Shown here: piece after piece, positions 2,464-6,437 of the stretch
How the letters are laid out: the number at the start of each line of letters is the position of its first letter
Position numbering within the stretch: position 1 is the first letter of the stretch
From: CBDUXZ01 sp965371325 [NCBI: uncultured bacterium]
GTDB taxonomy: Bacteria; JAUYMQ01
Length of the DNA: 7,433 bases
Assembly (NCBI GenBank): GCA_965371325.1
Contig: CBDUXZ010000086.1
Location: 1 to 7,433, forward strand
Reading direction: 5' to 3'
The notes under the pieces: generated by a model
Database searches by the model: none
What the model was told of the DNA's origin: nothing
The model's input: only the letters and a program-made list of their open reading frames with translations
Program-made: the position numbers and the translations under genes

Positions 2464-2583
2464 GGCAAAGCTTCAGCAAAATTCCGCTTGTCGGAGCATA
2501 ACCAGGGCCCAACCGGATCCCGCCGCCACTGTGAACCCCGCGCCGAGGTTCGAAACCGGCCAGCCCCAGTCTAGGCGATCGGG

Positions 2584-2645
2584 CCGTGGGGCGCACGTGG
2601 ACTGCATCGCGCGCCCGGCTGCGCGCCGTTGTGACCGCCCCACGG
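2584..2645. repeat. Nested inverted repeat in the divergent intergenic region
   Basis: CCGTGGGGCG (2584-2593) is perfectly complementary to CGCCCCACGG (2636-2645). The stem can extend by CAC (2594-2596) with GTG (2631-2633), leaving a 2-base bulge. Inside, GCGCGC is repeated around the 6-base loop CCGGCT (about 2609-2626) as a second perfect hairpin. The whole 62-base element could form a cruciform or a two-tier RNA stem. It lies between the divergently read lipoprotein gene and the DUF2461 gene. No T-run follows on either strand, so it does not look like an intrinsic terminator. The structure is seen; its function is unknown. Confidence 0.55.
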
Positions 2646-2675
2646 TTGTGCAATCATGGCCGCGTCGTCTAAAAA
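2646..2675 (+). promoter_or_regulatory. Weak candidate promoter for the DUF2461 / dehydratase-like operon
   Basis: TTGTGC (2646-2651) and TAAAAA (2670-2675) are 18 bases apart, matching the housekeeping consensus at 3 and 4 of 6 positions. The position, about 60 bases ahead of the ATG at 2736, is reasonable, and the AT-rich -10 stands out from GC-rich surroundings. If real, the right arm of the inverted repeat ending at 2645 abuts the -35 box. The rest of the 2464-2735 gap shows no other convincing signal. Confidence 0.22.
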
Positions 2676-2735
2676 AGTGACGGGCCCTTTGCCCGCCGAT
2701 ACCGCGTGGCGGTCATCCCGCAAAGAAAGCGGATC

Positions 2736-3449
2736 ATGTCTGACGTTCCCCGTTTCTCCGGTTTTCCCAGGGACGCGCTCCGGTTCTTCAGTGCGATCAA
2801 AAAGAACAACGACCGCACCTGGTTCGAGGCGCAGAAGAAAAATTACCAGGCGTCCGTCCTGGCGACGGCGGAGGCCTTCGTTTCGATTCTCGGGCCAAGG
2901 CTGCGGACCCTTTCCAAGGATCTCCGATTCGACCCGCGCACCAACGGCACCGGCTCCGTAAAGCGAATCTACCGGGACACGCGCTTCAGCAAGGACAAGT
3001 CTCCCTACAAGACCTATCTCGGCATACTCTTCTGGCAGGGCCCGCGAAAGGCAAAGAAGGAGAATCCGGGATTCCTCTTCCATCTCGATGAGAAGGGCGC
3101 GCGAATATTTGCAGGTCTCTACGCCTTCCCGCCCGATGTGCTCAAGGCCTACCGGGCGGCGCTTCTCGACAAACGCCTGGGCAAGGAGCTGGTCTTTGCG
3201 ATGGAGTCGATTGGAAAAAAACGCGGCTACGAGCTTGGCGGCCCTCATTACAAGCGTGTGCCGCAGGGCTACGATGCCAACCACCCGCGGGCAGAGCTGC
3301 TGCGGCACAACAACCTCTATGCAATCTCGCCGCGCATCGAGCCCGCGACCGTGATGTCCCCGAAGCTCCTCGATGCGTGCTTCAAACAGTGTCGCGACAT
3401 GGCACCTCTGGTGTCGTGGCTCGCGAAAGTGGAACGCCGGACAGGCTAA
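2736..3449 (+). CDS. DUF2461 (TIGR02453-like) family protein
   Basis: A cytosolic-looking protein of 237 residues with no signal peptide or membrane segment. The family is recognised from the N-terminal GFPRDALRFFSAIKKNNDRTWF (9-30), in which an F..F/L..L..NN..WF pattern is characteristic, and from the hallmark RIYRDTRFSKDKSPYKT (77-93). The mid-protein FLFHLDEKGARIFAGLY segment (113-129) and the C-terminal HNNLYA (191-196) also fit. The biochemical function of this family is not established to my knowledge, so none is assigned. I chose the ATG at 2736 because the product then begins just ahead of the conserved domain, as in the family. An in-frame GTG at 2706 would add ten residues (MAVIPQRKRI) but has no ribosome-binding site; the site ahead of 2736 is also weak. 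The stop is 15 bases ahead of the next gene, which strongly suggests co-transcription with the dehydratase-like protein. Confidence 0.9.
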   Translation: MSDVPRFSGFPRDALRFFSAIKKNNDRTWFEAQKKNYQASVLATAEAFVSILGPRLRTLSKDLRFDPRTNGTGSVKRIYRDTRFSKDKSPYKTYLGILFWQGPRKAKKENPGFLFHLDEKGARIFAGLYAFPPDVLKAYRAALLDKRLGKELVFAMESIGKKRGYELGGPHYKRVPQGYDANHPRAELLRHNNLYAISPRIEPATVMSPKLLDACFKQCRDMAPLVSWLAKVERRTG

Positions 3450-3464
3450 AGGAAGAGTTCCCGC

Positions 3465-4922
3465 ATGCCCCTCATGACCGTCTCCGAGTATGAAGAGAGT
3501 CTCCGCAAGCGCGACATTCAGGTCTACCTTTTCGGAGAGCGCCTTCCGAACGTGATCGACCACCCAATTCTGCGGCCGGCTTTCCGCTGCATCGCCGAGG
3601 TGTACCGTCTTGCTCTGGAGCCCGACACCCGGGACCTCATGACAGCCACAAGTCACCTCACCGGCGAGAGGGTGAATGCTTCGAGCATTCTCTGGCGGAG
3701 CAGGGAGGATCTCGAGAAGCGCGTCGAGTGGGAAAGGCTGGTTTCGCAGCTGACCGGGCGGGGCGCTCTCCGCTCTCCCGGGCTCGATGCGTTCAACGCC
3801 CTTGCCACCACCACGTGGGAGATGGATCGCGAGCTTAAGACCGACTACGGCAAGCGTTTTGAGAATTTTCTTCGGGAGGTTCACGAGAAAGACTGGGCGG
3901 TCTCCGGGGCCATGACGGACGTGCGTGGCGATCGATCGCGGCGCCCTTCAGAACAGGCCGACCCGGATCTTTTCCTGCGCGTTGTTGAACGGCGCGATGA
4001 CGGCATCGTGGTCAGGGGCGCCAAGATGCACCAGACCTCCGCCATCCATAGCCATTGGCATCTCGTCCTGCCGCTTCAGTGCCGCGAGGCCGACCGTGAT
4101 TACGCCGTTGCATTTGCGGTGCCGAGCGATGCCCCGGGGATCAGCCATGTCTACAGCCGGCAGCCGAGCGATACCCGCAAAACAGAGGAGGGGGGAGAGT
4201 TGGATCAGGGCCTCGGAGCATTCGGCGGTTGCGAGACGCTCATGATTTTTGACAACGTCTTTGTCCCCTGGGAGCGTGTCTATCTATGCGGCGAGTGGGA
4301 TTACACCACCCGCCTGGTCGAGCGTTTCGGCTCCTTTCACCGCTTCTGTTATGGCGGTTGCAAGGTGGGAATCGGCGATGTCGTGATCGGCGCCACGGCG
4401 CTTGCCGCTGAGGCGAACGGGGTGGCCGATAAACCCCTCATTCGCGACAAGCTGACCGAAATGCTTCATCTGAACGAAACGATGTATGCCTGCTCGGTTG
4501 CCGCGGCCGCCAGGGCGAAACCGCATCCCTCGGGCGTCTGGATTCCCGACCTCGGCCTCGCGAACGTCGCGAAGCTCAACGTCACCCGCTTTCCCTTCGT
4601 CATGGCCAGGCTCGCCGCCGACATCGCCGGCGGGATAATGCTCACACTCCCCTCCGAGAAAGACTTCCGATCCGAGAAGGTGGGCCCCTGGATCGAGAAG
4701 TACCTGAGGGGGGTCGATCACATTCCCACAGAGAACCGCATACGAATCCTCAGGCTTCTCGAAAACCTCACCTACGGCACGAACGCTACCTACTTCCTGC
4801 ACGAATCCCTTCACGGCGCTGGCTCGCCGGAATCGCAGAAAATCACCATACGAAAAGAGATCGATCTGGAGTCGCGGAAACGGCTCGCGCGCAGGCTCGC
4901 GCAGATTCCGGAGAGCGCCTGA
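3465..4922 (+). CDS. 4-hydroxybutyryl-CoA dehydratase-like protein (HpaB/AbfD superfamily), two iron-sulfur ligands missing
   Basis: A 485-residue protein of the flavin-dependent 4-hydroxyphenylacetate 3-hydroxylase / 4-hydroxybutyryl-CoA dehydratase superfamily, near the usual AbfD length. AbfD, which carries FAD and a [4Fe-4S] cluster, converts 4-hydroxybutyryl-CoA to crotonyl-CoA. AbfD-like stretches run throughout: AMTDVRGDR (149-157), QADPDLFLRVVE (164-175), GIVVRGAKMHQT (180-191), IFDNVFVPWERV (261-272), GEWDY (276-280), YGGCKVGIGD (296-305), LHLNETMY (334-341), TRFPF (374-378), PSEKDF (396-401), RILRLLENLT (427-436), HGAGSP (450-455). From memory of AbfD, cluster ligands His292 and Cys299 are kept (H292, C299), as are Glu257, Tyr296 and Lys300. 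The two N-terminal ligand cysteines fall at Gly100 and Ser104 in LTGRGALRSPGLDA. A normal cluster is therefore unlikely, and the reaction may be cluster-independent chemistry on a CoA ester, or the protein may be a degenerate homologue. The ribosome-binding site GGAAGAG supports the ATG at 3465 (ATG at 3474 is an alternative). Confidence 0.9.
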   Translation: MPLMTVSEYEESLRKRDIQVYLFGERLPNVIDHPILRPAFRCIAEVYRLALEPDTRDLMTATSHLTGERVNASSILWRSREDLEKRVEWERLVSQLTGRGALRSPGLDAFNALATTTWEMDRELKTDYGKRFENFLREVHEKDWAVSGAMTDVRGDRSRRPSEQADPDLFLRVVERRDDGIVVRGAKMHQTSAIHSHWHLVLPLQCREADRDYAVAFAVPSDAPGISHVYSRQPSDTRKTEEGGELDQGLGAFGGCETLMIFDNVFVPWERVYLCGEWDYTTRLVERFGSFHRFCYGGCKVGIGDVVIGATALAAEANGVADKPLIRDKLTEMLHLNETMYACSVAAAARAKPHPSGVWIPDLGLANVAKLNVTRFPFVMARLAADIAGGIMLTLPSEKDFRSEKVGPWIEKYLRGVDHIPTENRIRILRLLENLTYGTNATYFLHESLHGAGSPESQKITIRKEIDLESRKRLARRLAQIPESA

Positions 4923-5023
4923 GCGCCGAAACATTTCCGGGTGGGCCGTTCGCATGCAACTACACGGTTCCGGGCGATCCGGCTTGGGGCGAGGCGGGGG
5001 CGGGGAGTGTCCAGCAGGATTTG

Positions 5024-5440
5024 CTATCGCTCCAAGGCTTGCTTGATTTCGAGGATATAGCCATCGGGATCCGTGATGTAGATCGAAAGCCCCTCGCCAC
5101 GCGCTCCGTTACGCATTGTGGGTTCACCGATGATCTCCACGCCTTTCGACTTCAGGTAATCGGCGATTTCCTCAATGTTGTTCCCCGCAACACCAATGCA
5201 GACGTGATCGATGTGACGCTTGCCGAGATCTGGAAGCGGGGAGTCGCCGGAAAGCGGCATGAGATCGATCATCCCGGTTCCACATTGAAGCTGCCAGAGC
5301 TGGAATGCTTCGTTGTGGTTCACCAGCGCAAGCCCAAGGATACCCCGGTAGAAAGCGAGCGATGTCTGCGGATCACGAACGCGAAAGACGACGTGATCGA
5401 GTTCCCGCAGCCGGATCGGGTTTTCCGATCGATTTGCCAC
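5024..5440 (-). CDS. VOC (glyoxalase / extradiol dioxygenase fold) family protein
   Basis: A small cytosolic metalloenzyme-fold protein of 138 residues containing the paired beta-alpha-beta-beta-beta modules of the vicinal oxygen chelate superfamily. Module 1 starts LDHVVFRVRDPQTSLAFYRGILGL-like (14-37) and module 2 starts IDHVCIGV (77-84). The end is DPDGYILEI (124-132), a very common VOC closing motif. Expected metal ligands by position are His16, His79 and Glu131; the fourth position, in the strand MIDLM, appears to be Asp59 where glyoxalase I has Glu. Substrate cannot be told: lactoylglutathione lyase-like, epimerase-like or detoxifying VOC proteins all share this pattern. The start is GTG at 5440, chosen because GGGAGG stands 6 bases upstream on the minus strand. 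The gene is tail-to-tail with the dehydratase-like gene (101 bases between stops, with no clear terminator hairpin) and divergent from the methyltransferase. It has no operon partner here. Confidence 0.92.
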   Translation of the reverse strand: MANRSENPIRLRELDHVVFRVRDPQTSLAFYRGILGLALVNHNEAFQLWQLQCGTGMIDLMPLSGDSPLPDLGKRHIDHVCIGVAGNNIEEIADYLKSKGVEIIGEPTMRNGARGEGLSIYITDPDGYILEIKQALER

Positions 5441-5527: not shown

Positions 5528-5556
5528 TTGACTTGTCGCGGCCTTGCGGGGATGCT
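5528..5556 (+). promoter_or_regulatory. Weak candidate promoter for the methyltransferase gene
   Basis: TTGACT (5528-5533) is a good -35 match, but the hexamer 17 bases on, GATGCT (5551-5556), matches the -10 consensus at only three positions. It is about 70 bases ahead of the preferred GTG start at 5628. It lies in the 187-base gap shared with the divergent VOC gene, where I see no convincing promoter for the other direction. Confidence 0.18.
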
Positions 5557-5627
5557 GCAGATTGGTACCAACTGCGGTTCCCCCAGTTCCACCCCCCGGG
5601 AAGCCGAGCTCGGCCCGGAAGAGCCCC

Positions 5628-6437
5628 GTGGAAGCCAGGGATTGGGATCGACTCGCAACGCGCTATCACCGGGAAGTCATCAGCCCCTTCCAGAAGGGCG
5701 TCGAGAACCCCCTCCCCGCGACCCTCAAACGCATCCGGGGTGCGCGGCAGATGCGCGCCGCCGAGTTCGGCTGCGGGACGGGCTCCCTTCTCCCGCTTCT
5801 TTCCAGCCGCTTCGGGCACGTCACGGCGATCGATTTCTCGGAGAGGATGCTCACCCTTGCGCGCCGGCGCGTGACCCGCGGGAACGTGCGCCTGGTCCGC
5901 CGGGATCTGCGCGATCTCGGCGCGCTGCGGGAGCGTTTCGACGTCGCCATCACCGTAAACGCCATTCTCGCCCCCGACACTCGGGAGGTCAACGCGATCA
6001 TCGGTGGAATCTTCCGGAGCCTTCGACCCGGGGGACGGCTCGTCGCGATCTTCCCCGCGATGGAGCCCGTGCTCTATCAAGCGATGCTGATCTATGAGGA
6101 AGAAGTCGGCGCCGGGGGTGAGCGGAAACGCGCGCTTTCGCGCACACGCCGGCGTCTGGAACGCTCGAAGTTCAACTTCGAAATCGGGCTCTACGAAGAC
6201 GCGGGACTGGCACAGAAGTTCTACTACGAATTCGAAATACGCTTCCGACTCCAGCGCGCGGGTTTCAGATGGATCCGCATCGGGAAGGTTCTCTATCCCT
6301 GGAAAGCCGGGCGCATCGGATACGATCTCTTCCCCGGACAACCCCGGATGTGGGACTGGTTTGTGACGGCCCGCCGGCCGCGAAAACGCGACGCGCACCC
6401 CGGAACAGCACGCCCGCCTCCCTTAGGGCTCGCCTAA
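5628..6437 (+). CDS. Class I SAM-dependent methyltransferase, substrate unknown
   Basis: Transfers a methyl group from S-adenosylmethionine to an unknown acceptor; cytosolic, 269 residues with the start used here. The Rossmann-type SAM site is clear: motif I AEFGCGTGSLLP (about 45-56), acidic residue at the end of strand 2 in AIDFSE (Asp69), a further acidic position in RRDLRDL (Asp93), FDVAITVNAILAP (104-116) and post-motif LRPGGRLVAIFP (132-143). A helical insert rich in charge follows, then GFRWIRIGKVLYPW and a final strand WDWFVTAR. This is the ubiquinone/menaquinone-methyltransferase-like fold (Methyltransf_11/25 type), but nothing identifies the acceptor. The frame is open from a TTG at 5544, but that extension is Pro-rich and unlike the family. 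GTG at 5628 has GGAAGAG 4 bases ahead, so I prefer it. The tail after about residue 249 is Arg/Pro-rich and probably disordered. It is divergent from the VOC gene and 142 bases ahead of ada on the same strand. Confidence 0.9.
   Translation: MEARDWDRLATRYHREVISPFQKGVENPLPATLKRIRGARQMRAAEFGCGTGSLLPLLSSRFGHVTAIDFSERMLTLARRRVTRGNVRLVRRDLRDLGALRERFDVAITVNAILAPDTREVNAIIGGIFRSLRPGGRLVAIFPAMEPVLYQAMLIYEEEVGAGGERKRALSRTRRRLERSKFNFEIGLYEDAGLAQKFYYEFEIRFRLQRAGFRWIRIGKVLYPWKAGRIGYDLFPGQPRMWDWFVTARRPRKRDAHPGTARPPPLGLA

Follow-up and report, generated by a model that had tools for sequence, protein, structure and literature searches.

An AbfD-type protein with two of the four [4Fe-4S] cluster ligands replaced

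The window, which is the whole stretch of DNA analysed here (7,433 nucleotides), carries a gene for a 485-aa protein that resembles 4-hydroxybutyryl-CoA dehydratase (AbfD) over its full length and has glycine and serine in place of two cysteine ligands of the [4Fe-4S] cluster. The reading that we favor, with about even confidence and for a single sequence, is that this is a repurposed AbfD paralogue that lacks the usual [4Fe-4S] cluster, does not dehydrate 4-hydroxybutyryl-CoA, and would carry out flavin-only chemistry on a CoA ester.

Family assignment and residues at the cluster site

The 485-aa protein matched two Pfam domains, PF11794 (HpaB_N; E 7.3e-87, 291.8 bits against a gathering score of 35) and PF03241 (HpaB; E 4.8e-70, 235.3 bits against a gathering score of 25). 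Its top match among solved structures was AbfD of Clostridium aminobutyricum (1u8v; E 5.3e-159, 51% identity, full length). The second was 6vjr (E 2.8e-145), and HpaB-type monooxygenases came next at 1.9e-47 or weaker. We take 6vjr to be a vinylacetyl-CoA Delta-isomerase chain, the archaeal-type AbfD. It also matched over the full length and carries CFQRC, but it has one residue fewer before its equivalent of Cys299, where the 485-aa protein has the Clostridium-type YGGC. Outside the motif, the alignment to 1u8v contained two single-residue gaps, a deletion near 204 and an insertion near 242. In a 101-protein tree built from a quick search, the protein was placed within 73 AbfD-type rows, itself counted, with an SH-aLRT of 100. 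By similarity and nesting it can be assigned to the AbfD type, as an earlier note on this DNA had proposed when it described the protein as AbfD-like along its full length.

Residues were mapped in an alignment of 107 fetched proteins, the 485-aa protein and AbfD (1u8v numbering). We take the [4Fe-4S] ligands of AbfD to be Cys99, Cys103, His292 and Cys299, and its catalytic residues to be Thr190, Glu257, Tyr296, Lys300 and Glu455. The gene and the residues that were placed by alignment, together with the N-terminal segment delimited by segment identities, are as follows:

3465..4922, + strand: gene for the AbfD-type (HpaB_N + HpaB) flavoprotein, 485 aa (open reading frame, Pfam, 1u8v match)
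3672..3782, + strand: residues 70-106, N-terminal cluster-binding segment
3678..3680, + strand: Ala72, replacing AbfD Arg71
3762..3764, + strand: Gly100 (codon GGC), replacing the cluster ligand AbfD Cys99
3774..3776, + strand: Ser104 (codon TCT), replacing the cluster ligand AbfD Cys103
4035..4037, + strand: Thr191, equivalent to AbfD Thr190, kept
4233..4235, + strand: Glu257, equivalent to AbfD Glu257, kept
4338..4340, + strand: His292, equivalent to the AbfD ligand His292, kept
4347..4349, + strand: Cys295, at AbfD Ser295
4350..4352, + strand: Tyr296, equivalent to AbfD Tyr296, kept
4359..4364, + strand: Cys299 (cluster ligand; codon TGC, 4359-4361) and Lys300, kept
4803..4805, + strand: Glu447, equivalent to AbfD Glu455, kept

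At the four ligand positions the protein reads G, S, H and C, and the four-ligand set of AbfD is incomplete. The catalytic set is present in full (T191, E257, Y296, K300 and E447). The earlier note had named Gly100 and Ser104 as the replacements for Cys99 and Cys103, and both the alignment to 1u8v and the 107-protein alignment agreed; its statement that the His292/Cys299 pair, Glu257, Tyr296 and Lys300 are kept was also borne out by alignment. The motif stretch aligned without gaps, which upholds substitution instead of deletion. The AbfD motif given there as LTG-x-C was near the mark but inexact, as 1u8v reads QKTASCFQRCVGMDA. The range singled out in that note, 3762-4361, begins with the codon of the first lost ligand and ends with that of the last kept one. 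The residues at Arg71, Phe72, Gln101 and Glu379 (AbfD numbering) are altered as well. With two cysteine ligands substituted, the usual Cys99/Cys103/His292/Cys299 site is predicted not to form, in line with what had been claimed.

A sequencing error at 3762-3776 had been raised as a possible source of the substitutions. Under any choice of synonymous codons, GALRSP is separated from CFQRCV by 8 or more base changes, and no hidden CxxxC motif was present in either of the other two forward frames. These results exclude an isolated base-calling error, and a hidden frameshift was rejected on the same grounds.

Rarity and placement of the ligand loss

The sample held 220 distinct proteins: the 485-aa protein and 219 others, including AbfD. 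Among the 219, 207 had at least 33% identity to the 485-aa protein with the motif covered, two were fragments without the motif (L066 and L115), and 10 fell below 33%. Cys99, Cys103, Cys299 and Arg71 were each found in 207 of the 207 AbfD-type relatives, at positions where the 485-aa protein has Gly, Ser, Cys and Ala, respectively. His292 was present in 200 of them, the rest having Tyr (six) or Glu (one). Among the sampled proteins with at least 33% identity, the 485-aa protein is the lone exception at positions 99, 103 and 71. The 10 proteins below 33% were two Rhodococcus plasmid proteins, with T, E, H and Y at the ligand positions, and eight HpaB-type proteins.

These proteins were drawn from genomes of two phyla (those of L001 and L002), from plasmids and from one viral-collection contig. 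The choice of phyla followed from the only genome relatives found, one Clostridia MAG and one Thaumarchaeota MAG; Proteobacterial and further bacterial phyla, to which the window may belong, were represented by plasmids only, and five partial loci were left out. No homologue with more than 56% identity was found in 398 genomes of L001's phylum and 398 of L002's phylum. The genome-contig search gave two relatives, both with the cysteines present, and the viral-contig search gave L114, which keeps the cysteines, and the fragment L115 without the motif. In the plasmid search, among the 60 listed of 271 records, H1-H7 were 46-52% identical and the other 53 were at 33% or below; the plasmid proteins fetched were H1, H2, H3, H7, H8, H9 and six more. 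The phage search gave one piece with 22.6% identity. An orthologue of the 485-aa protein was not found in the genome contigs, viral contigs, plasmids and phages searched.

The earlier note had suggested that cluster-deficient homologues may already form a known separate group, and this was tested in part. The nearest sequences found without the cysteines, the Rhodococcus plasmid proteins L005 and L006, are AbfD-like (32% identity) and keep His292 and Lys300 as the 485-aa protein does. They differ from its G, S, H and C at the ligand positions, and they lie outside 97 other AbfD-type rows in the 101-protein tree (support 95), with an unsettled placement in the 24-row tree described below. The 485-aa protein grouped with them in neither tree, and kinship with them is unsupported. 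The L005 gene (6001-7407) follows an acyl-CoA synthetase gene and the L006 gene (5950-7356) follows an aldehyde dehydrogenase gene. The L006 record labels its copy 4-hydroxybutyryl-CoA dehydratase, a label that is doubtful. Among the literature matches listed, no published AbfD homologue without cluster ligands was found; most subscription journals lay outside the search, and a published case is possible. A 'type 2' form, the crenarchaeal Msed_1220, has also come under discussion. PMC7078158 tabulates Msed_1220 as a candidate beside Msed_1321.

A second tree used 24 rows, chosen by thinning on identity, and omitted residues 70-76, 99-106 and 291-301; these were quick trees. In this motif-free tree the 485-aa protein again fell among the cysteine-bearing rows, and a constraint that united all 19 such rows to its exclusion was rejected (AU p 0.014). 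The cysteine loss looks derived, not ancestral, because the protein nests inside a cysteine-bearing family without the motif columns. It joined divergent rows in both trees (12 rows with an SH-aLRT of 96 in the 101-protein tree; L069 and L083 with 90 in the 24-row tree). Its exact neighbor is unsure, since long branches can cause the joining of divergent rows.

Constraint was assessed with the 56 closest relatives (at least 44% identity), in which 93 columns were conserved at 95% or more. The 485-aa protein keeps 80 of the 93 and departs from 13. Five of the 13 departures lie in residues 70-106, to which 11 of the conserved columns belong (p 0.007 by hypergeometric test, for a region picked after the data were seen). 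This is also the least conserved segment, with an identity of 0.35-0.41 to L001, L114, L014 and AbfD, compared with 0.40-0.68 for the other six segments. Over the same residues, identities between ordinary members were 0.54 (L001-L002), 0.57 (L001-L003) and 0.59 (L001-L044), and L001 was 0.41 identical to the divergent L083. L196 is the exception to the low values, at 0.54 to the 485-aa protein. The idea that residues 70-106 derive from an HpaB-type gene in a chimaera was rejected: L107 and L110 reach 0.22 and 0.30 there, and the best four rows are all AbfD-type (L196, then L141, L032 and L031 at 0.43). The N-terminal cluster arm seems to have been released from constraint and most of the rest of the protein does not, a pattern that appears to fit a lost cluster role better than general decay.

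General decay would mean that a former AbfD has lost its function while its reading frame is still open. In the 101-protein tree the end branch of the 485-aa protein is long, at 0.76 where the median is 0.15, and the protein's letter make-up was flagged as odd, which also fits decay. Several strongly conserved columns have changed, and the protein ranks second in the close set by number of departures, with 13 of 93 (26 of 93 in L065 and at most 6 in any other). On the other hand, the 485-codon frame is intact, GC3 is unchanged, including within residues 70-106 (0.78), and the acid-base residues are kept along with the 80 conserved columns. We consider decay unlikely.

Proposed chemistry and possible alternative metal sites

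AbfD positions both a [4Fe-4S] cluster and FAD at its substrate and is the textbook case in which flavin and iron-sulfur cluster together drive the radical removal of an unactivated proton. The role of its cluster has been argued from laboratory-made ligand mutants, and the variants C99A and C103A reportedly have no measurable dehydratase activity. Given these roles and the inactive variants, the 485-aa protein should not dehydrate 4-hydroxybutyryl-CoA. PMC12794621 describes AbfD as a [4Fe-4S]- and FAD-containing enzyme, and PMC13101534 reports that an internal one-electron transfer in AbfD yields a flavin semiquinone ahead of dehydration.

The 485-aa protein probably catalyses a different, cluster-free reaction, judging from its residues. 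FAD and the CoA ester would still bind in the AbfD fashion, and FAD together with Tyr296, Glu257, Lys300 and Glu447 would carry out chemistry that needs no cluster. Since Tyr296, Glu257, Thr191, Lys300 and Glu447 are kept, the simplest surviving chemistry would be proton transfer next to the thioester. The most likely reaction would be a double-bond shift in an enoyl-CoA, which is the isomerase half of AbfD, and the second choice would be a two-electron, flavin-dependent acyl-CoA oxidation. The choice of an isomerase draws on the second activity of AbfD by analogy and is the weakest step. If the proposal is true, the protein would be a natural counterpart of the ligand-mutant experiment, with the acid-base set kept and two ligands dropped, and would show which chemistry the flavin half supports by itself. 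Annotation as 4-hydroxybutyryl-CoA dehydratase, which is used as a marker of carbon-fixation cycles, should then check the cysteine pair.

Another possible explanation is that the metal site was rebuilt, with His292, Cys295 and Cys299 binding either a single metal or a three-ligand cluster that leaves one iron open, and with the N-terminal loop out of use. The local sequence is HRFCYGGC in the 485-aa protein and HRQSYGGC in AbfD and many of the relatives. In the AbfD-type family, position 295 may contribute a ligand: Cys295 occurs in only five of the 207 relatives, all of them among the seven without His292, which suggests that a cysteine at 295 can stand in for His292. However, the five belong to one related group and represent about one event, and they retain Cys99 and Cys103. 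In the 485-aa protein, Cys295 stands beside a kept His292 and Cys299. Residues 292, 295 and 299 are spaced i, i+3 and i+7, and a low-confidence model places a helix at 278-295, but its pLDDT is below 50 across 289-318. The two AlphaFold2 models, built from 3 and 4 alignment rows, were both of low confidence, with a mean pLDDT of 37.4 and 48.3. A cubane held by three ligands of a single helix would have an unusual geometry, and Cys295 may be incidental, as Cys206 and Cys256 are likewise unusual for their columns. A rebuilt site is doubtful in our view. Slightly more doubtful is its extended form, a relocated cluster site: the protein would have given up the N-terminal CxxxC loop, and a His292-Cys295-Cys299 helix, bearing a single metal or a three-ligand cluster beside FAD, would support new flavin-metal chemistry on a CoA ester.

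It is improbable that the protein is still a 4-hydroxybutyryl-CoA dehydratase with its cluster held by other ligands. The complete catalytic set would suit such an enzyme, but two invariant ligands and Arg71 have been lost together, and single ligand variants of AbfD are said to lack the activity. A flavin-dependent monooxygenase of the HpaB kind, using reduced flavin supplied by a reductase, is the least probable reading. In its favor, the Pfam domains are shared with HpaB-type 4-hydroxyphenylacetate 3-monooxygenases (2yyg and others), which have no cluster ligands. Against it, identity between the 485-aa protein and the HpaB-type rows is only 20-28%, the two HpaB-type rows included in the trees were placed outside, the AbfD acid-base residues are kept, the protein's scores lie far below the HpaB equivalog cut-offs (TIGR02309, 190 bits against 480.2; TIGR02310, 108.2 against 885.2), and no flavin reductase was found among the window genes scanned, a weak point because one is annotated at most 3 kb away in only three of the six HpaB-type plasmid loci viewed.

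Gene neighborhood and related loci

The repurposed-paralogue reading that we prefer was also viewed against the neighboring genes, which are listed here:

window edge, - strand: dnaK, incomplete, named by protein similarity
1145-1585, - strand: Hsp20 gene
1816-2463, - strand: gene without a Pfam match
2706..3449, + strand: DUF2461 (TIGR02453) gene, a possible operon partner of the AbfD-like gene (open reading frame and profile matches)
3450..3457, + strand: AGGAAGAG, read in the sequence as ribosome-binding-site-like, with the ATG 7 nt downstream
5024-5440, - strand: glyoxalase-family gene
5544-6437, + strand: methyltransferase gene
window edge, + strand: ada-type gene, incomplete

The AbfD-like gene starts 15 nt past the stop of the DUF2461 gene and behind AGGAAGAG, so the two may be co-transcribed. 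Its GC3 is 0.76, and that of the seven other window genes is 0.65-0.83. Pfam and NCBIfam scans of the window genes gave no clear CoA-metabolism gene among the neighbors, which speaks against the repurposed-paralogue reading. Neither a CoA transferase nor a 4-hydroxybutyrate dehydrogenase gene was found among the window genes scanned, and the AbfD family does not require them. Cetobacterium L007 has acetyl-CoA hydrolase/transferase and 4-hydroxybutyrate dehydrogenase genes less than 4 kb from its AbfD-type gene. A promoter and terminator scan of the window gave sites no more numerous than in shuffled sequence. Among the plasmid matches listed for the window's DnaK, the best was 68% identical (Azospirillum), and the ten nucleotide matches listed for the window covered nothing beyond its dnaK end.

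The NCBIfam matches of the glyoxalase-family protein were far under their cut-offs (best 25 of 36), including methylmalonyl-CoA epimerase at 34.9 bits against 114.95. A 437-codon open frame at 2571-3884 on the minus strand lies antisense to the DUF2461 gene and to the 5' part of the AbfD-like gene, and is most likely a by-product of high G+C.

Several related loci differ from the ordinary AbfD pattern. On the viral-collection contig (L114:557-3276), the AbfD-type gene lies behind an alcohol dehydrogenase-like gene, judged by eye, and an integrase-like frame is found further on (4119-5363, minus strand); this locus is probably host flank beside a provirus. In L041, from a genome of L002's phylum, the AbfD-type gene has an in-frame TGA and an in-frame TAA, which may reflect a pseudogene, an error or recoding. 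In an AbfD-type subgroup comprising L040, L065, L068 and L071, all four ligands are present, Tyr296 is replaced by Cys, and there is one extra residue ahead of Cys299. Seven AbfD-type paralogues from L001's phylum (L083, L087, L089, L090, L092, L104 and L069) keep Cys99, Cys103 and Cys299, have Tyr for His292 (Glu in L069), and lack Glu257, Tyr296 and Lys300; five of them have Cys295. This group is possibly a cluster enzyme with other chemistry. The L087 gene (context L229) adjoins an AMP-binding CoA-ligase gene, and the L090 gene (context L230) lies between 2-oxoacid:ferredoxin oxidoreductase and acyl-CoA dehydrogenase genes.
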